From the IMG/VR virus record IMGVR_UViG_3300047364_000021, positions 1 to 23,910 of that record: a stretch of DNA of 23,910 nucleotides, one strand, 5' to 3'. Under the pieces are notes generated by a model. That model was not told the origin of the DNA, made no database searches, and saw nothing but the letters and a program-made list of their open reading frames with translations. This DNA comes from a virus. Below, one piece after another: positions 12,710 to 23,910 of the stretch. Position numbers and translations under genes: made by a program. The stretch's first letter is position 1. Every line of letters starts with the position of its first letter.

Positions 12710-13151
12710 CCTCGAACGCTTTTGGCACGACCTCATCGACGGTCGGCGCCACATCATTAACGAAGTGTATGGCAACGAGGCTATGCTGAGATACAGGCCG
12801 CACCCAAAGGAGAAGGAATACTTCCTCGCCAACAACGGGCGCGTGGCGTACAGCATCGAAGTGTCAGAGCACACCCGTAGCTTTTGGGACATGTGTGAGC
12901 GCATGTACGGACACAAGCGGCTGGCGTATGAGGACCGCCTGACCAAGAACAGGATCAAGGCGCAGAGCTATCCCGAGTACAAGAAAGGCAAGGCAGAGCG
13001 TGAGGCATTGGCGGCAAAGATTCGCGGCGTAATATTGGACCATGCCAAAGAGGAGCACCAAGACGGACAGCAAGGCCAGCAAGCAGCTGCGCAAGAAACG
13101 CAAGGCCAAGAAGCCGCTGACACACGCACAACTCAAGAAGAAGGTAGATGA
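12702..13151 (+). CDS. Hypothetical protein, 149 aa, with Gln/Glu-rich tail
   Basis: This gene overlaps the previous stop by 8 bases. Residues 1-115 look like a folded helical protein (LERFWHDLIDGRRHIINEVY, FWDMCERMYGHKRLAYEDRL); the last ~30 residues (HQDGQQGQQAAAQETQGQ and on) are low complexity and coincide with the first 110 bases of the NinG frame. The acidic/glutamine-rich tail is therefore probably a by-product of the overlap. No family recognised; position argues for a replication or recombination accessory. Confidence 0.62.
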   Translation: MTDLERFWHDLIDGRRHIINEVYGNEAMLRYRPHPKEKEYFLANNGRVAYSIEVSEHTRSFWDMCERMYGHKRLAYEDRLTKNRIKAQSYPEYKKGKAEREALAAKIRGVILDHAKEEHQDGQQGQQAAAQETQGQEAADTRTTQEEGR

Positions 13152-13599
13152 GTGGTTCAGCAAATACATCCGCTACAGAGCGGCAGACAAGTACGGTGAA
13201 GCCGAGTGCTACACATGCGGAAAGCGTCACCATGTTAGGAATCTCCAAGCGGGACATTTTGCGTCTCGGAGGTACATGGCCACCCGTTGGCACGACCCAG
13301 CGGACGGACACGGCAACGTGCAATGTCAGTGTGTTGCCTGCAATTTGTACGACCAAGGGCGTCAGTGGGCTTTCGGTAGACGACTTGACCAAGCTGTCAA
13401 AGGACGCGCTGAAGAGATTATGCGAGATACAGAACAGGCTCGACCGTATGGAGTGGCAGAGTTGCGTCAGCTCGCCGATCACTACAAGGGAGAAGTCCAA
13501 AGATTCCTTTTGGAGAAACCTGCCATCAATGAGCGAAGAGATAAAGCAGCGGCATATAACCGAGCTGAGAGACGCAAGGCGGAGGATACTGCTGGCTGA
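13042..13599 (+). CDS. ninG: NinG/Rap-like recombination protein
   Basis: The 185-residue product matches lambda NinG (Rap), a structure-specific nuclease acting on recombination junctions and D-loops. After a lysine-rich N-terminus, THAQLKKKVDEWFSKYIR leads into the zinc module AECYTCG (C56, C59), NLQAGHFASRRYMATRWH and NVQCQCVACNLYDQG (C95, C97, C100), then FGRRLD. All expected cysteines and the AGHF..R motif are present. It probably resolves recombination or replication intermediates together with the annealing-type proteins upstream. It overlaps the upstream gene by 110 bases and a likely downstream gene by about 150. Confidence 0.85.
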   Translation: MPKRSTKTDSKASKQLRKKRKAKKPLTHAQLKKKVDEWFSKYIRYRAADKYGEAECYTCGKRHHVRNLQAGHFASRRYMATRWHDPADGHGNVQCQCVACNLYDQGRQWAFGRRLDQAVKGRAEEIMRDTEQARPYGVAELRQLADHYKGEVQRFLLEKPAINERRDKAAAYNRAERRKAEDTAG

Positions 13600-13699
13600 C
13601 CATACAACACAATACACCGCACGCATGCGCAAGGTTGAGGAGAAACTATTTGCGCTGACGGGGAACCTCATATACGCCTATGCCAACGATTCCGCGTAA
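13448..13699 (+). CDS. Hypothetical protein, ~83 aa, mostly dual-coded with the end of ninG
   Basis: This frame is open well upstream (to 13148), but the part that looks like protein begins around 13385-13448: LTKLSKDALKRLCEIQNRLD, then MEWQSC and SEEIKQRHITELRDARRRIL, ending LTGNLIYAYANDSA. Codons in this part follow the style of the phage. Start options are TTG 13385, ATG 13448 and ATG 13529; the last gives 56 residues and the smallest overlap with ninG (71 bases). The stop lies 20 bases inside the HNH gene, so the operon would otherwise have an 80-base gap. Helical, function unknown. Confidence 0.5.
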   Translation: MEWQSCVSSPITTREKSKDSFWRNLPSMSEEIKQRHITELRDARRRILLADHTTQYTARMRKVEEKLFALTGNLIYAYANDSA

Positions 13700-13961: not shown

Positions 13962-14061
13962 GGGGTGCAAAAAATATGAGCAATTTGCTGCAGCATCGCC
14001 GTAGTAACATGGGCGAAATATTGCGTTTTTTTTGTCGCGATTTGACAGCTAGCTTTGACAC
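13962..14061 (+). other. Intergenic region before the terminase, candidate cos/packaging site
   Basis: This 100-base gap separates the HNH and small terminase genes. It contains the palindromes GCTGCAGC (13988-13995), TCGCGA (14035-14040) and AGCTAGCT, a T8 run (14026-14033) and two of three TTTGACA repeats. The gap before terS is where the cos or pac site often lies in HK97-like phages. No terminator hairpin was found here. Confidence 0.4.
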
Positions 14062-14076
14062 ATGAACGATTTGACA
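14038..14076 (+). repeat. Three TTTGACA direct repeats across the terS start
   Basis: TTTGACA occurs at 14041-14047, 14054-14060 and 14070-14076; the first and last are part of an identical ten-base word CGATTTGACA (14038-14047, 14067-14076). The cluster straddles the terS start codon. Repeats of this kind may be small-terminase or regulator binding sites. Confidence 0.45.
14050..14057 (+). promoter_or_regulatory. TAGCTTTG box, candidate leaderless promoter for the head operon
   Basis: TAGCTTTG is an exact match to TAnnTTTG and ends four bases before the ATG of the small terminase, so transcription would begin at or next to the start codon. A TTTG at 14031-14034 could be the -33 element but at a short 15-base spacing. 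It would drive terminase, portal and capsid genes. Confidence 0.5.
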
Positions 14077-14424
14077 CCAAAGCAACAGGTAGCATACGCC
14101 CGCATCAAGGAGGCGCTGCGCAGTGCTCGGCACATCGGCGCACTGGACGAGGACCTGCTGAAGATGGCGGCATGCTTAACCGTAGAGGTGAGCGAACTGC
14201 AGGCCATCATTGATGAAAAAGGGTACACCTACGAAACGGTGAACCGCGCAGGCGACACGATGACCAAGCACAGGCCTGAGCACCAAATGCTGGTCGAGTC
14301 CCGATCCAAGTACCTCGTAGTTCTCAAAGAGTTGGGCATGACGCCCGCAGCCCGCAAGCGCATCGAGGTCGATGTGGAGATTGACGACGAACTGGAGCAG
14401 CTGCTGACGTTCAAAGATGCTTGA
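14062..14424 (+). CDS. terS: Terminase small subunit, P27 family
   Basis: The 120-residue protein has the P27-family plan: an N-terminal helical region (LTPKQQVAYARIKEALRSA), the central ACLTVEVSELQAIIDEKG, the GYTYETVNRAGDTMTKHRPE segment matching 'G......G....NP' strands, then SRSKYLVVLKELGMTPAARK, the hallmark helix-turn 'LGLTPAsR.Rl'. It recognises phage DNA and recruits the large subunit. It overlaps the large terminase start by 8 bases. P27 small terminases with HNH neighbours are usual in HK97-like phages. Confidence 0.9.
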   Translation: MNDLTPKQQVAYARIKEALRSARHIGALDEDLLKMAACLTVEVSELQAIIDEKGYTYETVNRAGDTMTKHRPEHQMLVESRSKYLVVLKELGMTPAARKRIEVDVEIDDELEQLLTFKDA

Positions 14425-16111
14425 AGGTGAAGGGCACCAGTATGCGCTCGACGTAGTGCATGGCAAGCTGGTCGCCAGCAAGTACACGCGCAAAGCGTGC
14501 GAGCGCTACCTGACCGACCTCGACACCGCCGAGGAGCGCGGCCTTGAGTTCAGGCCAAAGACGGCGCAGGCGTACATCACCTTTTTTCAGCGAGCCATCA
14601 GGCACACGGTAGGCGAATGGGATGGCAAACCGTTTGACCCACTACCGTGGCAAAAGTTTATCTTGTGGAATCTTTACGGCTGGTTCCGAGAGGACGGCAC
14701 AAGACGATTTAATTATGCTTATATCACGGTTGCTCGCAAGAATGGTAAGACGACTCTCATGGCGGGTGCTGCGCTCGCAGCTCTATTCTTTGATCAAGAA
14801 AAAGCTGCTGAGGTATATTTTGCAGCAACTAAGAAAGACCAAGCCAAGATTGGATTCGACGAAGCGCAGCGGATGGTTACGATTTCGCCGCCGCTCCGCA
14901 AGCACCTCAAAGCAGGCAAGCACGACATCAAGGCGCCGACGCTCTCGGCGCGGTGCACGTACCTCAGCTCGGAGCGCGACACGCTCGACGGACTGAACGT
15001 CCACTTTGCAGGGATTGACGAATACCACGCACACACCACCGACGGCGTGGCCAACGTCCTGCGTTCAGGTATGCAGGCGCGTCGCAATCCTTTGCACCTC
15101 ACAATCACAACGGCTGGGTTCAATCGCGAGTCACCATGCTTTGAACTGCAGAAGACGTGCAAGGAAATACTTGACGGTATCAAGCACGATGACGCGCAGT
15201 TTGCCATCATCTACGAACTCGACGATGATGACGACTGGACCGACAGCAGTACATGGATCAAGGCAAACCCGTCGCTGGGTACTGCGCTGCGTGGCCAGCT
15301 GCTCGACAGCCAGCTGCAGCAAGCCATCAACCTCGGCGGTTCGCGTGAGGTAGAATTTAAGACGAAGCACCTGAACAAATGGGTGACGGCTTCAAAGACG
15401 TGGATACAAGATGAGGTGTGGATGCGCAACAAGCGCGAGGCCAACCTTGACGGCCTGAAATGCTGGGGCGGCCTTGACCTTGCAAGCGTCAGCGATATGA
15501 CGGCGCTGGTGATGTGTTACCCTGAAGACGGCGGCTATCACGTGCGCGGTCACTACTTCCTACCAAGCGACACGGTGCACCAAGTGCTGGACCGCGACCC
15601 GTCGCACATCTACCGCACGTTTCTTGAGCTGCCCAATGTACACCTGACCGACGGCAACGTTACCGACTACGCCAGCATACGCCGAAAGGTGAGCGGCGTG
15701 ATGAACAAACCCGAGGGGCAAGTGGTAGAAGAGTCGAGCCTGATGCACACGTACAACGTGCAGAAGATTGCCTTTGACAGATACAACAGCACGCAGATCG
15801 CCATCGACCTTGTTGACGACGGTGTGCCGCTGGTCCCGTTCGGTCAAGGCTTTGTTTCAATGAGTTCACCCACTAAGCAGCTTGAGGTGCTGGTACGAAC
15901 GGGCAAGCTGTGGCACGACGGGGACCCCGTACTGCGTTGGGCGCTCGGCAACGTCGAGCTGAAGATGGACCCAGCGGGCAACATCAAAGCCGACAAACAA
16001 AAGAGCGGCGGAAAGATTGACCCGATCGTGGCCATGATTATGGGCATCGGCGAACACATGAAATCGCCAGCAGAGGACGAGGGCTATTTTGAGATTATCA
16101 ACCTTTCGTAA
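14417..16111 (+). CDS. terL: Terminase large subunit
   Basis: The 564-residue protein carries both activities of the packaging motor. The ATPase has Walker A ARKNGKTT (residues 106-113) and Walker B VHFAGIDE (195-202) followed by YHAHTTDG and the coupling segment LTITTAG. The nuclease domain starts at WGGLDLASVSDMTALV (first acidic residue near 353), includes IAFDRYN (~residue 450) and ends with GGKIDPIVAMIMGIG (last acidic residue near 533). Length and motifs fit the HK97-type (YmfN-like) family. It cleaves concatemers and pumps DNA through the portal encoded next. Confidence 0.95.
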   Translation: MLEGEGHQYALDVVHGKLVASKYTRKACERYLTDLDTAEERGLEFRPKTAQAYITFFQRAIRHTVGEWDGKPFDPLPWQKFILWNLYGWFREDGTRRFNYAYITVARKNGKTTLMAGAALAALFFDQEKAAEVYFAATKKDQAKIGFDEAQRMVTISPPLRKHLKAGKHDIKAPTLSARCTYLSSERDTLDGLNVHFAGIDEYHAHTTDGVANVLRSGMQARRNPLHLTITTAGFNRESPCFELQKTCKEILDGIKHDDAQFAIIYELDDDDDWTDSSTWIKANPSLGTALRGQLLDSQLQQAINLGGSREVEFKTKHLNKWVTASKTWIQDEVWMRNKREANLDGLKCWGGLDLASVSDMTALVMCYPEDGGYHVRGHYFLPSDTVHQVLDRDPSHIYRTFLELPNVHLTDGNVTDYASIRRKVSGVMNKPEGQVVEESSLMHTYNVQKIAFDRYNSTQIAIDLVDDGVPLVPFGQGFVSMSSPTKQLEVLVRTGKLWHDGDPVLRWALGNVELKMDPAGNIKADKQKSGGKIDPIVAMIMGIGEHMKSPAEDEGYFEIINLS

Positions 16112-16121
16112 CTTGCGCGCA

Positions 16122-17309
16122 ATGGCTAACTGGTTCCAAAGAATTTTTCAGCGTGACGGCTATCAAGTAGCGTACACAGGTCACCACAGTTTCGCATCGC
16201 ACTTGCGCGGTATCAGCACGCGGGCGGGTGCTTTTGTAGACACCGAGTCAGCCATGGGCTTGTCCACAGTTTACGCTTGCGTCCAGCGCATCAGCAGCAC
16301 GATCGCGCAGCTGCACCTCGACGTTATGCGACGAACCGAGAACGGAGTGCAGGTAAGCGTCGGCCACACCATTCAGGACCTCATCAGCGTAGAGGCGGAA
16401 GAAGGCTACACAGCCTACGACTTTTGGCAGACCTACGTGGCGAATATCTTGATCTATGGCAAGGCTTACGCCATCATCAAGCGCCTACCCAATGGCGACC
16501 CGTATGAGCTTTGCATTGTCAACCCCAAGTCGGTAAAGGAGAAGATGGTTGACGGTGAGGTGATGTACGAGGTCAAGGACCGTGGTGTGTACATGCACGC
16601 CGACATGCTGCGCGTCTGCAACCTGTACGGACAAAGCCCGATTGAATTGCACCGCGAGATGCTCGGACTCGCCAAGGCAGCGCAGGACTTTGCTGCTGAG
16701 TTCTTTGGTAGCTCAGGCAACATGACTGGCATCTTGTCCAGCAACGAGCCGCTGAAGAAGGAGCAGATTGACATCATTAAAGACAGCTGGAACAATAGCG
16801 GCGACCAGCTCGGCACTAAGCTCCTGCCATTCGGCTTCCGTTACGATCGCATCGCAGTTGATCCTGAGAACGCGAGCCTGACCGAGCAGCGCGACTTTTT
16901 GAATCAGGAGATATGCCGAATCTTTGGTGTACCGCCGAGCCTTGTGGGTGTGCAGTCGAATGTGACGTACAGCAATACGGAGCAGCAGGCCATCCAGTTC
17001 GCCAAGTACACCATCGTACCATGGACTCGGCAGATAGAGCAGGAGATGAATTGCAAGCTCATCGCACCTGACGAGCGCCTGACGCATTTTACACGCTTCG
17101 ACCTTGCAGACCTTTTGCGAGGCGACAGCGTGAGCCGCGCCCAGTATTACGACACGCTGGTGAAGGCGGGCATCATGAGCATCAACGAAGCACGACGCAC
17201 GGAGGACATGAACGGCGTAGCAGGTGGCGACGCTCACATGGTCCAAGTCAATCAGATCGCGCTCGACAAGCTCGACGAGTACAGCACTAAACTCAGCAGC
17301 GGTGTCTAA
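16122..17309 (+). CDS. Portal protein, HK97 family
   Basis: I place the start at the ATG at 16122 (MANWFQRIFQRDGY), ten bases after the terminase stop; an in-frame upstream start at 16089 would overlap terL. The 395-residue product shows the portal signatures: SAMGLSTVYACVQRISSTIA near the N-terminus, FFGSSGNMTGILSS, and ICRIFGVPPSLVG followed by TYSNTEQQAIQFAKYTIVPW and an RQIEQEMN helix. It forms the dodecameric channel for packaging and tail docking. The capsid polyprotein start overlaps its last codons. Confidence 0.93.
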   Translation: MANWFQRIFQRDGYQVAYTGHHSFASHLRGISTRAGAFVDTESAMGLSTVYACVQRISSTIAQLHLDVMRRTENGVQVSVGHTIQDLISVEAEEGYTAYDFWQTYVANILIYGKAYAIIKRLPNGDPYELCIVNPKSVKEKMVDGEVMYEVKDRGVYMHADMLRVCNLYGQSPIELHREMLGLAKAAQDFAAEFFGSSGNMTGILSSNEPLKKEQIDIIKDSWNNSGDQLGTKLLPFGFRYDRIAVDPENASLTEQRDFLNQEICRIFGVPPSLVGVQSNVTYSNTEQQAIQFAKYTIVPWTRQIEQEMNCKLIAPDERLTHFTRFDLADLLRGDSVSRAQYYDTLVKAGIMSINEARRTEDMNGVAGGDAHMVQVNQIALDKLDEYSTKLSSGV

Positions 17310-19923
17310 GGATTATCCACAGGCTGCAGTTAACAACGCCAAGCGTGCGCTTAAGTACGCCGAGGAGAATGGCTGGGGCAGCTGTGGCACACCAGTCGGT
17401 AGGCGCAGAGCATCGCAAATCGCAAGCCGCTCGGAGCTGTCGGACGATGTGATAAAGCGTGTCTATAGTTTCCTAAGCCGCCACGCACAGAACGCTGACG
17501 TGCCTTATGACGAAGGCTGTGGCGGTTTGATGTATGACGCTTGGGGCGGCAAGTCGATGCTGCCATGGGCCAAGAAGAAAGTCAAGGAGATGACCGAACG
17601 CCAGCAGCGCAATCGTGCTGAGGCGCTCAAGAATAAAGTCGAGGAGCACAACAAAGATGTGGACGCTGCACACAAGAAGGCGACCGTGTCCATGCTGGAG
17701 AAGGTATACGACCGAGGCGTGGGTGCATACAAAACGAACCCGTCAAGCGTGCGGCCCTCGGTCAAGACGCCTGAGCAATGGGCCATGGCTCGCGTGAACT
17801 CATTTTTGTATGCCTTGAAAAACGAACGGTTCCGAGGCGGCAAACACGATACTGACCTGTTCCCCAAAGGTCACCCGCTACGATCAAAAGAAAAAGAAGA
17901 AAAGATGGAAGAGAAAAACAGCAAGCAGCTGGCAGAGCTGCGCAATAAATACGGCGACGACGTCGAGCTGAGAACAGCCGAGGTCCGTGCTGCAGGTGAT
18001 GACTCGCTTGTCATCGAAGGCTACGCTGCCAACTTTGAGCAACGCACAGACCTTGGATATTTCAAGGAGGAGATTGCACGCGGTGCATTCGAGGACGTCA
18101 TGGAGGACGACGTTCGGCTGCTGCTCAATCACGACGGCGCACCGATGGCACGCACCACAAACGGCACGCTGGAACTCAGCGTTGACGAGAACGGACTGAA
18201 GTACCGCGCAGCATTGGCCGACACGCAAGACGGTCGCGACATGTACAAGTTGATCAAGCGTGGCGATATCACGCAGTCCAGCTTTGCCTTTACGATTGGC
18301 GAGCAGGAGTTCAGCGAGGACCGCAGCGTGCGCCGCGTGCTGAAGGTGGCACGCCTGTTGGACGTTAGCCCAGTCACGTACCCAGCGTATCCAACCACTA
18401 CGGTGGCAGCGCGACAGATGGCCATGCAAGAGCCTGAGCCAGTAGAAGAAACTGAAACGATTTCAGAGGCGCAACCTGAAAAGCAGGAAGTGCGTACCTT
18501 TGAACAAACAGCGGAAAGTAAGCCCGCAAAACAATTTAAGATTATGAACTTACGCAACTCAAATGATGCGGCCCGCTACATTTCCCAGCTGGAAGACAAG
18601 TTGGCTAACATCAACGCCCTCGCAGAAACCGAGGAGCGAGCGTTGACTTCTGAAGAATTGGAAGAGACGCAAGACATCCACGCAAAGCTCGAAGCTGCAG
18701 AACAGCAGCGCGACGCCCTTGCAAAAAACGAACAGCGCCTCAAGGCTCGTGCCGTTGCCGCCGATGCGGTTGTACGAAGCGACAAGGAAGCTATCAAAGC
18801 AAACGCCAAGTTTGACTTTGGTAAGGCTATGCGCGAATTGTCCAACGGTCAGGCTTTGACAGGTTTGGAGAAGGAAGCATTGGAAGAAGCACGACACGAA
18901 GCATCTTCTCGCGGCCTTGAGATTCGCGGAAACTTTGCGATTCCACAGAGCATGTTGGTTCAAGCCCGTAACGTATACGGTGTTGATTCATCACAGTCAG
19001 GCGTAAACGACGCAGTGACAACTGTAGCCACAGAGGTTACTGAGTTGGTTGGTGCTTTGCGTGCAAACTCTTTGCTTGCAGCTACTGGTGCCACACAGCT
19101 CAACGGCTTTGTTGGCGACATCAAGATGCCATCGCTTCCAACTGATGCCGCTTCTACACCAGTAGAAGGTGCTGCAGTAGGCAGCAACACAGGCGCAATG
19201 GGTTCAGCTACTCTGTCACCGCAACGCATCGCGCAGCAGATGATCGTGACTAAGGAGGCCATGAACCAAACAAGCGGCAACATGAGCAACGTAATCGCTG
19301 CAGACTTTGGTCGAGCTATTGCCATCGCTCAGGACAAGATTGCTTTGAACGCTATTCACGGTGTTGGTGGAGCAGCTGCTTTGGCTGGTCAAACTGGTAC
19401 TGTTGTAGGCCGTGTTGAAACAGGTGACAACGACATCCCAGCTATCACTGCTGACAATGTCCGCGACTTGTGGAGCACAATCACTGCAAACGGTGCAGAG
19501 AACAACACAGCGTTTGTTGCTCACCCGTCTGATTTTGCTTTCTTGATGAGCCTCGCCAACGTTTCAAACGTAAGCGCTTTGGTTGAGAACGGTCAAATCA
19601 TGGGATACAATGTTTTGTCAAGCGGAACAGTGCCGTCAATTGACGCTACTGCTGTCAATGCAAATGAATTCCTGAGCAACGCAGAAGCAGAGCCATTTGG
19701 TGCAAACGGTTCAGCTTTGCGCTTCTTGTACTACGGAGATTGGACAGACTTGTTCTACGCCAACTGGGGTGGATTGGATGTAACTATTGATCCATTCAGC
19801 CAGTTGTCAGAGGGCAATGTTAAGATTGTAGTAGACACTTTCTTCGACGCAAAAGTGCGACGCGCTGAGTCTCTCGGTGCTATGGTATTTGCACAGGAGA
19901 CAATCTTGGGAGCTAACGGATAA
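17302..19923 (+). CDS. Fused prohead protease-major capsid protein with two extra N-terminal domains, 873 aa
   Basis: I start at the GTG at 17302, overlapping the portal stop by 8 bases; an ATG at 17224 in the same frame only translates portal sequence out of phase. Domains: (i) residues ~3-98, a helical module (ENGWGSCGTPVGRRRASQIA, IKRVYSFLSRH, MYDAWGG) found in several phage virion proteins; (ii) ~130-195, a DUF5824-like segment (VYDRGVGAYKTNPSSVRPSV, QWAMARVNSFL); (iii) ~227-370, an S78/U35 prohead protease with LLNHD (catalytic His ~276) and TQSSFAF (catalytic Ser ~325); (iv) from Met415 (nt 18544), HK97-fold major capsid protein with a coiled-coil delta domain. Codons become AT-richer and more uniform in the capsid part, suggesting stronger expression. 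Confidence 0.9.
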   Translation: MSKDYPQAAVNNAKRALKYAEENGWGSCGTPVGRRRASQIASRSELSDDVIKRVYSFLSRHAQNADVPYDEGCGGLMYDAWGGKSMLPWAKKKVKEMTERQQRNRAEALKNKVEEHNKDVDAAHKKATVSMLEKVYDRGVGAYKTNPSSVRPSVKTPEQWAMARVNSFLYALKNERFRGGKHDTDLFPKGHPLRSKEKEEKMEEKNSKQLAELRNKYGDDVELRTAEVRAAGDDSLVIEGYAANFEQRTDLGYFKEEIARGAFEDVMEDDVRLLLNHDGAPMARTTNGTLELSVDENGLKYRAALADTQDGRDMYKLIKRGDITQSSFAFTIGEQEFSEDRSVRRVLKVARLLDVSPVTYPAYPTTTVAARQMAMQEPEPVEETETISEAQPEKQEVRTFEQTAESKPAKQFKIMNLRNSNDAARYISQLEDKLANINALAETEERALTSEELEETQDIHAKLEAAEQQRDALAKNEQRLKARAVAADAVVRSDKEAIKANAKFDFGKAMRELSNGQALTGLEKEALEEARHEASSRGLEIRGNFAIPQSMLVQARNVYGVDSSQSGVNDAVTTVATEVTELVGALRANSLLAATGATQLNGFVGDIKMPSLPTDAASTPVEGAAVGSNTGAMGSATLSPQRIAQQMIVTKEAMNQTSGNMSNVIAADFGRAIAIAQDKIALNAIHGVGGAAALAGQTGTVVGRVETGDNDIPAITADNVRDLWSTITANGAENNTAFVAHPSDFAFLMSLANVSNVSALVENGQIMGYNVLSSGTVPSIDATAVNANEFLSNAEAEPFGANGSALRFLYYGDWTDLFYANWGGLDVTIDPFSQLSEGNVKIVVDTFFDAKVRRAESLGAMVFAQETILGANG
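18495..18546 (+). promoter_or_regulatory. Possible internal expression signal for the capsid part
   Basis: TACCTTTG at 18495-18502 is an exact TAnnTTTG match inside the protease-capsid linker, 41 bases before an in-frame ATG (18544) placed exactly at the start of the delta domain in AT-rich context (ACAATTTAAGATTATG). An independent start here would yield a 459-residue capsid protein of normal length. No -33 element is evident, so promoter status is uncertain. Confidence 0.35.
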
Positions 19924-19947
19924 GGTTAGATTGATTGAATGAGAAAG

Positions 19948-19977
19948 GGCCTCGCAACCATGCGGGGCCTTTTTTTT
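19948..19977 (+). terminator. Rho-independent terminator after the capsid gene
   Basis: GGCCTCGCA (19948-19956) pairs with TGCGGGGCC (19961-19969), one T-G wobble, loop of four, followed by eight T (19970-19977). It would end the head transcript right after the capsid gene. Confidence 0.87.
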
Positions 19978-19984
19978 ATCTTGC
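19977..19984 (+). promoter_or_regulatory. TATCTTGC box, candidate promoter for the connector operon
   Basis: TATCTTGC resembles the Bacteroidota box TATCTTTGC with one T missing and lies at the edge of the terminator T tract. It ends four bases before the ATG at 19989, the same arrangement as at the terS start. A -33 match is not evident. Confidence 0.35.
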
Positions 19985-19988
19985 ACCC

Positions 19989-20561
19989 ATGTACTACACT
20001 TTAGAGATTACTGGCGCAGCTGCCGAGGCCAGCATCGTCAGCACCGCAGACCTCAAGACATTTTTGCGCGTAGACCACAGCGACGAGGACACGCTGATTG
20101 AGGCGCTACGCAGCGCGGCCATCGAGTACGTGCAGAATTATTGCAACGTACAGCTCGGCGACGTCACGGCGGTTATGTATCTCGACGAGTTCCGTGGTAC
20201 GTGGGAAATCCCTGTTGGTCCTGTGCGCAGCATCACCAGCATCGTCTACAACAACACGCCGAGCACGACGCTCACCTTGGCGACCTCGCAATACTACAGC
20301 GACCTCAAGCGCAAGCCCGCACGCATCACCACCATCTCGCCACCGACTGTGCACCCTGATACAAGCAACGGCGTGCAGGTGACGATGGAGTTGGGGTACC
20401 TTGAGGCCGAGGTGCCCGACGGTTTGATTCACGCGATCAAGCTGCTGGTCGCACACTTCTATGAGAACCGCAACATTGTCGTGGTGGGCACCATCACAAG
20501 CGAGGTACCTAACCTGATCCACAGCTTGCTTAATCCTTACCGCGTAATTTCAGACCGATGA
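19989..20561 (+). CDS. Head-tail connector protein, gp6-like
   Basis: The start is the ATG at 19989 (MYYTLEITGAAAEASIVSTA), downstream of the terminator; an in-frame ATG at 19935 lies before the terminator and is unlikely. The 190-residue protein has the connector pattern: VSTADLKTFLRVDHSDEDTL, then EALRSAAIEYVQNYCNVQLG, a central beta part and the closing helix VPDGLIHAIKLLVAHFYENR. This matches the HK97 gp6/SPP1 gp15 family that forms a ring under the portal. It heads a tightly overlapping connector operon. Confidence 0.9.
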   Translation: MYYTLEITGAAAEASIVSTADLKTFLRVDHSDEDTLIEALRSAAIEYVQNYCNVQLGDVTAVMYLDEFRGTWEIPVGPVRSITSIVYNNTPSTTLTLATSQYYSDLKRKPARITTISPPTVHPDTSNGVQVTMELGYLEAEVPDGLIHAIKLLVAHFYENRNIVVVGTITSEVPNLIHSLLNPYRVISDR

Positions 20562-20890
20562 GGATAGGCAAGAGCGACCGACGTATAACGATAGAGCGCT
20601 ATACGACTGCAACGAACGTGTACGGCGAGCGGCGGCTGGACTACACGACGCTGATGACCGTATGGGCTGAGTTGATGAAGACGGGCGAAGGTATGACCGA
20701 GCGCATCAGTACGAACCAAGACATGCCCATTCAGCGCGTGCGCTTTAAGATTCGCAGCAGCAGCGACAGCCGAGGCATCAAGGCTGACGACCGCGTGCTG
20801 TATGACGGCAAGTATTACAACATTCAAGGCATCGAGGAGGTGGGCCGACAGGACCAGCTTGTATTGCTTTGTCAAATTACTGGGACGTAA
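20558..20890 (+). CDS. Head closure/head-tail joining protein (SPP1 gp16-like)
   Basis: The ATG overlaps the connector stop (ATGA at 20558). The 110-residue product has the head-tail adaptor pattern: RIGKSDRRITIERYTTATN, the YGERRLDYTTLMTVWAELM segment, then VRFKIRSSS, ADDRVLYDGKYYNIQGIEEV and a closing strand DQLVLLCQI. These proteins form the ring that closes the filled capsid. Order gp6, gp16-like, gp10-like and terminator is canonical. Confidence 0.88.
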   Translation: MRIGKSDRRITIERYTTATNVYGERRLDYTTLMTVWAELMKTGEGMTERISTNQDMPIQRVRFKIRSSSDSRGIKADDRVLYDGKYYNIQGIEEVGRQDQLVLLCQITGT

Positions 20891-21426
20891 TGGCAAAGGG
20901 CAGCCTCGAAATGAAGGGCGGCGGCGTAGGCTTTGAAGGCATCGGCGTCGACATACAGCCATTGCTGAAGCAGTTCGAAGAATTGCGAAAGCAGGTCAAG
21001 GATAAGGACGTGCAGAAGCGCATCCACCGATCCGTTGGCAACATCTACAAAAAGGAGATGGTGAACAACATCAAGGACGCGCGTGAGGTTATCCGTATTC
21101 GCAGAGGTCAGGACGAAATCAAAGAGCGCGATAATATTCCAATTGGTACGCTGCGCCGCTCCATCCGCGTGTGGCTCATTGACAAGCAGGCCAGCACGTA
21201 CTGGGTAGGGCCTCGCGTAGGTCGCAGGATGCCATACCAAAATGACGGATGGTTTGCTAATATTGTAGAAGGCGGTGACCAAAAGTTTGGCGGCGGCAGA
21301 AACAAGGGCGTGTTTGAGCGCTCTATTCGCAACAAGCGGCAGATGGCGCTCACAACAATGCGCAAAAAGTACGAGTTCCAAATTCGCAAGGCAGCACGCA
21401 AGGCGGCAAAGAAGACAAAGAAATGA
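20890..21426 (+). CDS. HK97 gp10-like head-tail/tail completion protein
   Basis: I select the ATG at 20890 (overlapping the upstream stop, TAATG) rather than an in-frame TTG at 20869. The 178-residue protein has the gp10 layout: a GIDIQPLL-like start (VDIQPLLKQFEELRKQVKDK), IYKKEMVNNIKDA, the strand RRSIRVWLIDKQASTYWVGP, YQNDGWFANIVEGGDQKFGG matching 'yA..vE.G', and a long basic C-terminal helix (RKAARKAAKKTKK). It sits in the neck region in related phages. Its stop overlaps the next ATG. Confidence 0.85.
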   Translation: MAKGSLEMKGGGVGFEGIGVDIQPLLKQFEELRKQVKDKDVQKRIHRSVGNIYKKEMVNNIKDAREVIRIRRGQDEIKERDNIPIGTLRRSIRVWLIDKQASTYWVGPRVGRRMPYQNDGWFANIVEGGDQKFGGGRNKGVFERSIRNKRQMALTTMRKKYEFQIRKAARKAAKKTKK

Positions 21427-23910
21427 ACGCAGGAAAAGCAGTATACGGAATTTTGAGCGCCAACAGCGGCGTCACTGACTTGGTAAGCACGCGCATCTTT
21501 CCTGAGATTGCAGAGCAGGAAGCGGCGACGCCATTTATAGTGTATCAGCTGCAGAGCGTAGCGCCTGAGGATACGCACGACGGACCGTCAAAGCTCGATG
21601 AGGTGCGCTTTGAGTTCCTGTGCTATGCCGACACCTACGACACAGCGGCTGACGTAGGCGTCAAGGTCCGTGCTGCTTTGGATCGTGTGAGCGGAACGTA
21701 CAACGGCGTCAACGTGGAAAGCGTACAGTTCAATGACGTTGACATTGATATTGAATACCAGCCACGCCGATACAGCCAAGTGCTCAAGTTCACCTTTCGC
21801 ATCAAGCGCGACGATTTTACGATTGCACAAGGCACGCCAGTCACGGGTGCGCAACTTGGTCAACTTGCTGACGTAGACGTTGACGGCGTATCGAACGGCC
21901 AGCTAATTGCATACAACAGCACGAGCGGCAACTGGGAAGCGGCGGACGATGCAACAGGCAGCAACACGCTGACAGGTTTAACAGATACCAGCATTACCAC
22001 GCCTGCAGATCGTGAAGCTCTTATCTACGACGGCGGCAACTGGGTCAACGATAACATAAGCAAGTCGGACGTCGGGCTGGGCAACGTGGACAACACCAGC
22101 GACGATGATAAGCCCGTAAGTTCAGCGACGCAAACGGCCTTGAATGCGAAGGCAGACACGAGCGCAGTACCTACGGAGCTGAACGACTTGAGCGACGTGA
22201 CGATAACAGGCACGCCCGCAGGAAACGAGGTGTTGATTTTCGACACGGCTACGAGTTCATTCAAGTCGCTGCCGAACTTTACTAACCGCTTTGAAGACGA
22301 CGCGGAGAACAACAAGCCCGCCACGCCATTTGGGGAGCGGGTGTATACGGTCAAGGCAGACGGGGACGGCATTTTTATTGACGCGCAATCTGACACGCCA
22401 TCAGCGGGCAAGGTTATCGAGCGCAAGATTTACTACAAGGCGGGCTTTCTTGAAAGCGGCGACGCCATCGGCGATTTCACCTTGATCCACACGTTCGCAG
22501 ACGATACCGCTTATTCTGCTACGGAAAGCGTGTTTGAAGGGTTTAGGGATGGTGACACGTACGGCACGCCGCCGTTCACGCTGTTGCAGACGTGGGAGGA
22601 GGCGACAGCAGCGCCAACCTTTACGGGCTTATTAAACGAATCATACGGCAGCGGCGCGGCTGCGGCGTATTCGGTGCGGCGATTGAATGGTAATTACACG
22701 GGCGCGGCGATTGAGGTAGAACGCAGCTCTGACAATACTTATCAGGACATCGGCTTTGATTCCAACGGCGACTTGGACGAGAGCGCACTTACGACGTTCT
22801 GCACGGGTACGACGTGCAAAGTCCGAAGCTGGTACGACCAATCGCAGACGGGCGGCACGGGTTCAGGCAACGACGCAGTACAGACGACGCACGCGAACCA
22901 GCCGACTATTTACACGGGCGGCGCGATTGTGAAGGAGAACGGACGGGTGGCGTTGGATTATGAAGGTTCGCAATCATTGTATAGTTCAGGCGTAAGCATC
23001 GCGGCAAGTATGGATATTTACCATACAACGAAAAAAGACACGTCTACGCGACAGGCTTGGTTTGCGTTTGATGCTTCTTCGAACACCAATTACTTGCGGC
23101 AAGAGGCGACCAGCGAACAAGTATTATTTCAATTTACAGACGGCTTTAATTTTTTCCTATCAGGGAATGCACCCGCCTCAAACAGGTTGACACAAAATCT
23201 ATACAATGCAAATGCAACATCAGGAGCGCAAGAAGTGCGGTTGAATGGTGTTTCTTTATTTACCGATACCGACACATATTCGGCGACAGGGATTAGCGGT
23301 TTGTACATTGGTGTACAAAATAATGGCGCTAATGATTTAGACGGCAAGTATCAAGAGTTCATAATTTATGACAGCGTAAAAAACTCGACCGACCGCAGCG
23401 ACATCGAAGAAAACGTCGGCGACTACTTCACCCAAAACACGCCACTCCTCGACACGTATACAGGAGCGGCGGCGGCCTACTCTTTGCGCAAGCTGCGAAC
23501 TGCCTACAGCGGGAGCGCCGTTCGAGTGCGACGAAGCAACGACAACGCCGAAACCGACATCGGATTTAACGTATTTGGTGAGCTTTCTACGGTGAGCCTT
23601 GCGGCGCACTGTGGTTCGAACGACGGATTCGTGGTGACGTGGTACGACCAAAGCGGGAACACGAACGACGCGACGCAAAGCACGACGGCGAATCAGCCAA
23701 AGATTTACGACGGGACGACGGGCGTGGTGACGGAGAACGGAAAGCCTGCCTTTGAGTTTGATGCAAGCAACGATACAATGGTATCATCTTTCAGTAGCAG
23801 TTCAAACTACAGCGTCTTTCAGGTTTTTGCGCAATTGCAAATTTTGACCACTGGCAATTTGTTTAGCACGATTGACTACGGAACAAGCGGCGCAAAGTCA
23901 GGCGTTCAAG
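21423..23910 (+). CDS. Tail terminator fused to fibre shaft and GH54-like modules (neck appendage), partial at window end
   Basis: The ATG overlaps the gp10-like stop (ATGA) and the frame stays open for 829 codons to the window end. Residues 1-127 match a DUF3168-like tail terminator (GILSANSGVTDLVSTRIFPE, TPFIVYQLQS, VRFEFLCYA, RRYSQVLKFTFRI). Residues ~145-285 hold three fibre-shaft repeats (such as LADVDVDGVSNGQLIAYNST and DLSDVTITGTPAGNEVLIFD) plus SKSDVGLGNVDNTSDDDKP. Two GH54 catalytic-like/LamG-like modules follow (from ~398 and ~676), each with an AYS(V/L)R(R/K)L start and WYDQS; the first has TTFCTGTTCKV, close to fungal GH54 enzymes. If the map is circular, the protein ends at 691 with about 929 residues. 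Catalysis is unproven. Confidence 0.82.
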   Translation, partial: MNAGKAVYGILSANSGVTDLVSTRIFPEIAEQEAATPFIVYQLQSVAPEDTHDGPSKLDEVRFEFLCYADTYDTAADVGVKVRAALDRVSGTYNGVNVESVQFNDVDIDIEYQPRRYSQVLKFTFRIKRDDFTIAQGTPVTGAQLGQLADVDVDGVSNGQLIAYNSTSGNWEAADDATGSNTLTGLTDTSITTPADREALIYDGGNWVNDNISKSDVGLGNVDNTSDDDKPVSSATQTALNAKADTSAVPTELNDLSDVTITGTPAGNEVLIFDTATSSFKSLPNFTNRFEDDAENNKPATPFGERVYTVKADGDGIFIDAQSDTPSAGKVIERKIYYKAGFLESGDAIGDFTLIHTFADDTAYSATESVFEGFRDGDTYGTPPFTLLQTWEEATAAPTFTGLLNESYGSGAAAAYSVRRLNGNYTGAAIEVERSSDNTYQDIGFDSNGDLDESALTTFCTGTTCKVRSWYDQSQTGGTGSGNDAVQTTHANQPTIYTGGAIVKENGRVALDYEGSQSLYSSGVSIAASMDIYHTTKKDTSTRQAWFAFDASSNTNYLRQEATSEQVLFQFTDGFNFFLSGNAPASNRLTQNLYNANATSGAQEVRLNGVSLFTDTDTYSATGISGLYIGVQNNGANDLDGKYQEFIIYDSVKNSTDRSDIEENVGDYFTQNTPLLDTYTGAAAAYSLRKLRTAYSGSAVRVRRSNDNAETDIGFNVFGELSTVSLAAHCGSNDGFVVTWYDQSGNTNDATQSTTANQPKIYDGTTGVVTENGKPAFEFDASNDTMVSSFSSSSNYSVFQVFAQLQILTTGNLFSTIDYGTSGAKSGVQ
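23519..23910 (+). repeat. Right-hand copy of the segment also found at 1-389
   Basis: This stretch aligns in frame with 1-389. The first part differs by many mostly synonymous changes and one codon length difference; the last 106 bases (23805-23910) are identical to 284-389. It is either the overlap of a circular genome assembled from two variants or a tandem copy of the fibre module. Confidence 0.85.

Follow-up and report, generated by a model that had tools for sequence, protein, structure and literature searches.

In the window analysed here, which is the entire IMG/VR virus record of a marine phage (23,910 nucleotides), two small modules (M1 and M2) precede a prohead protease and a major capsid domain in a single open reading frame, and in related viruses M1 and M2 are an optional in-frame insert, the slot being polymorphic and lying where the portal gene meets the protease-capsid gene. 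The explanation to which we give somewhat better than even chances is that they are accessory modules, delivered into the head on a minor full-length chain, while the capsid protein is made mainly from an internal start.

The frame runs on the + strand from GTG 17302 to TAA 19923 and encodes 873 aa. As the sequence-only reading of this DNA had stated, it holds four parts, which Pfam and PHROG profiles place in the order M1, M2 (DUF5824), S78 prohead protease and HK97-fold capsid (Table 1). Peptidase_S78 (PF04586) scored 143.6 bits against a cut-off of 21 and Phage_capsid (PF05065), in the same frame, 60 bits against a cut-off of 24.2; the capsid part matches HK97 Prohead II in Foldseek with a TMt of 0.71. 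The protease His (NH) and Ser (QSSFAF), noticed in the same reading, are conserved in 8 of 8 aligned close chains. In the AlphaFold2 model of the whole chain (mean pLDDT 73.2, 59-row alignment) low-confidence linkers at residues ~199-233 and ~372-414 join the folded parts. A MuF domain (PF04233) gave no Pfam match in the chain up to an E value of 1. The terminator lies directly 3′ of the capsid stop, where it would part the head mRNA from the downstream genes. Elsewhere in the window, two long same-strand ORFs in different frames (13042-13599 and 13148-13699) overlap by ~450 bases.

Table 1. Features of the fusion ORF and its surroundings in the window.
Feature	Position	Strand	Description and evidence
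Portal gene	16089..17309	+	PF04860, E 7.7e-83; stop overlaps the GTG of the fusion
M1	17302..17598	+	aa 1-99, helical, basic, pI 9.2; phrog_2859, AlphaFold2, charge
M2 (DUF5824)	17599..17904	+	aa 100-201, helical, basic, pI 9.9; PF19141, AlphaFold2
In-frame ATG, candidate internal start	17905..17907	+	aligns with the first Met of the protease chain of module-less relatives
S78 prohead serine protease	17977..18426	+	aa 226-375; PF04586, E 8e-42; TIGR01543, E 7.9e-30
Disordered linker	18427..18543	+	AlphaFold2 pLDDT <50 at 372-414; within the stretch of lowest synonymous divergence (codons about 375-450)
ATG 18544 (aa 415), candidate capsid start, with helical delta-like region (aa 415-545)	18544..18936	+	
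HK97-fold major capsid domain	19030..19887	+	aa 577-862; PF05065, E 3.2e-16; Foldseek
Strong intrinsic terminator	19941..19976	+	MFE -24.1 kcal/mol for 19930-19985, z -4.55

For M1 no Pfam match was obtained, and the module matches phrog_2859 with an E value of 8.5e-12. M2 had been called DUF5824-like, and DUF5824 (PF19141) is indeed matched at aa 92-174 with 30.9 bits against a gathering threshold of 25. Modelled alone with AlphaFold2, M1 and M2 consist of helices only (mean pLDDT 91.7), as expected for two helical domains ahead of the protease. Searches with Pfam, TIGRFAM-type and PHROG profiles matched neither module to an enzyme family or characterised domain; a PDB fold search with M1-M2 returned nothing at E <= 0.001 (the best hit being VIA, Z 4.2), and sequence profiles against the PDB gave none for M1 and two weak matches for M2 (E 0.36 and 0.38). 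Both modules are under purifying selection (dN/dS 0.02-0.12 against the loci L002-L005), and comparative genomics bore out the module order, the four-part arrangement recurring in 55 distinct ORFs; selection and recurrence together place the architecture far beyond chance. Loss of the frame in relatives, named in the sequence-only reading as a sign against the fusion, was found in part: besides M1-M2-S78-capsid and M1-S78-capsid, BLAST revealed M1-M2-S78 followed by a separate capsid gene and a separate M1-M2 gene before S78-capsid.

M1-M2 have a net charge of +8.2 per 100 residues, compared with -6.5 for their carriers; M1+M2 are net positive in 187 of 193 cases and more basic than their own carrier in 193 of 193. 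Putative DNA binding by M1-M2 is likely. A third small module, M3, is DUF3721-like (L004:1365-4196, L066:318-2564, L030:4661-7462) and, unlike M1-M2, acidic; it joins M1 and M2 in several orders, and its conserved Cys and His suggest metal binding.

In order to escape the bias of module queries, protease domains alone were used for a further scan. The protease group of the window (L498-L561) comprises 60 distinct chains, 6 of them cut at the 5′ end and 54 uncut. Modules are absent in 33 of the 54 uncut chains, and the others contain M1 (10 chains), M1+M2 (4), M1+M2+M3 (3), M1+M3 (3) or M3 (1). Among the module-less chains listed, the portal passes directly into the protease chain, whose first Met corresponds to window ATG 17905. 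Identical protease domains with unlike module sets occur in six sets; in 6 such pairs identity is 88.8-93.8% over the last 600 portal bases and 89.7-99.1% over the protease DNA. On a 50-row protease tree, from which 5′-cut chains and duplicates were left out and to which 19 earlier loci were also offered, the module set requires at least 21 changes (least possible 5, shuffled mean 25.8); this tree is short and poorly resolved, so that 21 changes describe one topology, and the identical-protease sets are independent of it. At several loci of another protease group a different small gene occupies the slot between portal and protease. In comparison with the window, L006 is 83% identical in M1-M2 and 27% in the capsid, a difference that is, judged by sequence, a swap of the capsid with retention of the modules.

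The M1-M2 scan gave 80 loci, four further scans were made, and profile searches covered 419 loci. They yielded 383 distinct ORFs that contain M1, M2 or both, arranged in 29 architectures and, with M3 counted, in ten module orders; these numbers depend on the module queries and are not frequencies. A portal, S78, XkdF, MuF or capsid domain is present in the chain of 278 of the 383; in the chains of the other 105 no head domain was detected, and 62 of these have no detected head gene within 3 kb, by profiles that do not cover all phages. M1-M2 were also found by BLAST at the C-terminus of longer proteins, of which L063 and L066 are portals of different families and L074 is an XkdF protease according to Pfam. 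M1, M2 and M3 all occur on portal and XkdF protease chains as well, and M1 also on portal-MuF. In haloarchaeal viruses M1 is carried by portal-MuF (HRTV-28, and HRTV-4 by annotation), by a portal (HATV-3) and by a protein annotated as prohead protease (HGTV-1).

The position of the modules is C-terminal to portal in 56 of 56 chains, C-terminal to XkdF in 65 of 66 and N-terminal to S78 in 153 of 153, the S78 label resting on a window-seeded profile in 114 of these chains and on a divergent profile in 39 (hhalign match to the former at 96.7% probability). From established portal and HK97 structure, the module-bearing ends of portal and HK97-type chains face the head interior. A tree of 121 M1-M2 rows, thinned from 203, requires at least 9 changes of carrier (portal, S78, XkdF or none), where 3 is the least possible number and the shuffled mean is 63.8. 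Carriers were thus switched several times yet not often, and most clades hold one. Fused as they are to head proteins, M1 and M2 are most naturally read as being delivered into the procapsid, and the basic charge of M1-M2, the inward-facing ends and the rapid gain and loss together point to accessory head cargo that binds DNA.

Two other readings of the same distribution have to be weighed. The modules could be injected anti-host effectors following the theme of polyvalent proteins; their fast gain and loss resembles an arms race, and portal and MuF fusions have been proposed as a delivery route (PMC5512222). However, M1 and M2 match no enzyme family and the basic charge suits DNA binding better, and we regard this reading as rather unlikely. 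Alternatively, the modules might work in the infected cell, in DNA packaging, replication or the nucleoid, having been fused to head genes by adjacency only and being freed by cleavage. Standalone M1 ORFs of 152-179 aa recur. At the locus whose neighbours were analysed (L298:4821-5294) a standalone M1 of 157 aa separates a helicase/methyltransferase from the terminase large subunit, and an M1 ORF of similar size is present at many loci of one of the further scans. Standalone M1 is also found beside topoisomerase genes in PaBG and elsewhere in SCTP-2. The M1 of L298 immediately precedes the gene of the large subunit, a place often taken by the small terminase; the setting fits a DNA role and not head delivery, and it is standalone M1 in the neighbourhood of terminase that speaks most strongly against a role in the head alone. 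Moreover, M2/DUF5824 is present on a cytidylyltransferase-like protein of T4-like Pelagibacter and Methylophilales phages (L090:2483-4270, L091:2840-4789). On the other side, several different head carriers are fused with consistent polarity and another small gene can fill the slot instead, which makes a role confined to the infected cell improbable.

Taking the one ORF of the sequence-only reading to mean one product is not supported; the frame is probably nested, with ATG 17905 and ATG 18544 as retained internal starts. Among seven close chains, synonymous divergence reaches its minimum for the ORF at codons 375-450, at about 0.16-0.44 of expectation (P 0.003 by position shuffle, which treats codons as independent), and it is lowest around ATG 18544, the candidate capsid start. 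In other clades the dip at the capsid start is clear in two, weak in one and absent in one. The 15 codons upstream of the capsid-start Met show none of the synonymous changes expected there in the 6 chains of clade C; among the 4 chains of clade B the lowest stretch, the 5′ end excepted, is just upstream of this Met, which by the 15-codon measure is outside the six lowest; in the AT-rich clade E the lowest stretches are within the capsid domain. When in-frame Mets were ranked by upstream synonymous divergence, the Met with the lowest value marked a domain boundary in all of the 5 clades except B: it was the protease start in A, where the capsid start came second, and in E, and the capsid start in C and D. 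ATG 18544 and ATG 17905 are the least structured of the 22 in-frame ATGs of the window ORF, although A-rich linker codons alone could cause this, and a Met is found at the delta start in 13 of 13 distinct coil-type fusions listed. Recombination at the linker could partly explain the synonymous dip, since L002 and L027 have a common capsid N-terminal type and different protease types. A sigma-70 scan of 14000-21500, which covers promoters of sigma-70 type only, listed no internal promoter near 18544. A break in codon usage at the capsid was rejected as a general feature, GC3 falling from 0.64 to 0.47 in the window but the mean shift over 128 fusions being -0.015.

If there were no internal starts, all capsid subunits would be synthesised as 95 kDa full-length chains and then cleaved, as proposed for the PAJU2 polyprotein. 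Several clades keep an open frame across all parts, and a protease-capsid fusion with self-cleavage is already on record as a proposal (PMC8306868). On the other hand, 415 copies of aa 1-414 would add 19.4 MDa of protein per head, ~80% of a sphere of 190 Å radius (T=7 capsid size assumed), and the synonymous dip and the unstructured ATG at 18544 also argue against this reading, which we consider decidedly improbable.

According to the preferred explanation, M1-M2 were inserted in frame in a way that preserved ATG 17905 as the start of the protease and ATG 18544 as that of the capsid; the capsid protein would come mostly from 18544 as a product by itself, while full-length chains, being in the minority, would co-assemble through their own capsid domain. 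For these steps the support is indirect. The N-terminal 414 residues of the full-length chains would then be located in the procapsid lumen, the protease could cleave the disordered linkers, and the freed basic modules might remain with the incoming DNA and later exit with it. Their action may resemble that of the variable internal proteins in the heads of T-even phages, with the DNA being bound and possibly shielded from host defence. That M1-M2 form an assembly part instead (a scaffold, as suggested in the sequence-only reading, or a portal-docking adaptor) that aids procapsid building and is then digested would suit their helical models and the fact that most ORFs place them on a portal, protease or capsid chain, but they are missing from most uncut chains of the window's protease group and the capsid retains its own delta-like helices, so that this is very doubtful.

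A wider picture, which we put forward only tentatively, would unite M1, M2 and M3 in a cargo system that tailed viruses of bacteria and archaea use independently of the carrier: the modules would be shuffled in many orders onto portal, MuF, XkdF and S78-capsid chains, enter heads on them, be cut free, bind the genome and be ejected together with the genome as a fast-evolving counter-defence layer. An electrostatic tether was also considered, as poly-Glu linkers were at first seen in 16 of 16 chains without fused modules versus 0 of 112 with them; it was dropped because the protease-anchored sample contains acidic linkers in chains where no module was detected and in one M1-fused chain. The acidic linker looks like a clade trait. 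Very long poly-Glu linkers lie between protease and capsid in one group, with a net charge down to -33 in 40 residues (several among L019, L023-L036, L038-L047 and L446-L466).

If the preferred explanation is true, some marine 'major capsid protein' annotations conceal optional head cargo, the protease-capsid chain can bring small domains fused to it into phage heads, and one natural slot gives close relatives with and without each module for testing cargo function. Protease-capsid fusions are already known, and the remaining features less so. The PAJU2 capsid may be protease-fused and self-cleaved (PMC8306868), the only remark on protease-capsid fusion and internal starts that the literature search found, in the accessible part of that paper. 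Like the fusion of the window, the PAJU2 capsid polyprotein and PHROG 617 have an S78 protease in frame with an HK97-fold capsid, whereas in the accessible text M1/M2 modules are not mentioned and nested starts not discussed for PAJU2. No paper on DUF5824 or DUF3721 was found in the literature search. In the Roseobacter phages CRP-821, CRP-822, CRP-823 and CRP-831, as in the window, M1-M2 begins the capsid gene downstream of the portal gene, and in Synechococcus phage S-CBS1 the capsid gene begins with M1, a module that the roseophage CRP-406 carries too; the capsid genes of the CRP-821 to CRP-831 set and of S-CBS1 are annotated only as 'major capsid protein', and the words protease, fused and fusion are absent from the main text of the CRP paper.

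Extra domains on portal, MuF and other head proteins, delivered with the DNA, have been described as polyvalent proteins (Iyer et al. 2017) and MuF polymorphic proteins (Jamet et al. 2017). The fusion of the window likewise joins several different domains in one chain encoded among head genes; enzymatic domains are stressed in the accessible parts of those accounts, whereas here small basic modules of no known enzyme family ride a protease-capsid chain. The internal head proteins of T-even phages are variable, basic cargo released by the prohead protease. M1/M2 are also basic and variable, but ride whole head proteins, while the T4 internal proteins use a short targeting peptide. In lambda C/Nu3 and herpesvirus UL26/UL26.5 an in-frame nested start adds a short form, the major one, to the long form that contains the protease, and in contrast to these the short form here would be the capsid protein and not a scaffold. 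Long minor and short major forms co-assemble in Gag-Pol/Gag and lambda C/Nu3, and the window, if the preferred explanation is true, would provide a bacterial-virus example of such co-assembly for a capsid protein.
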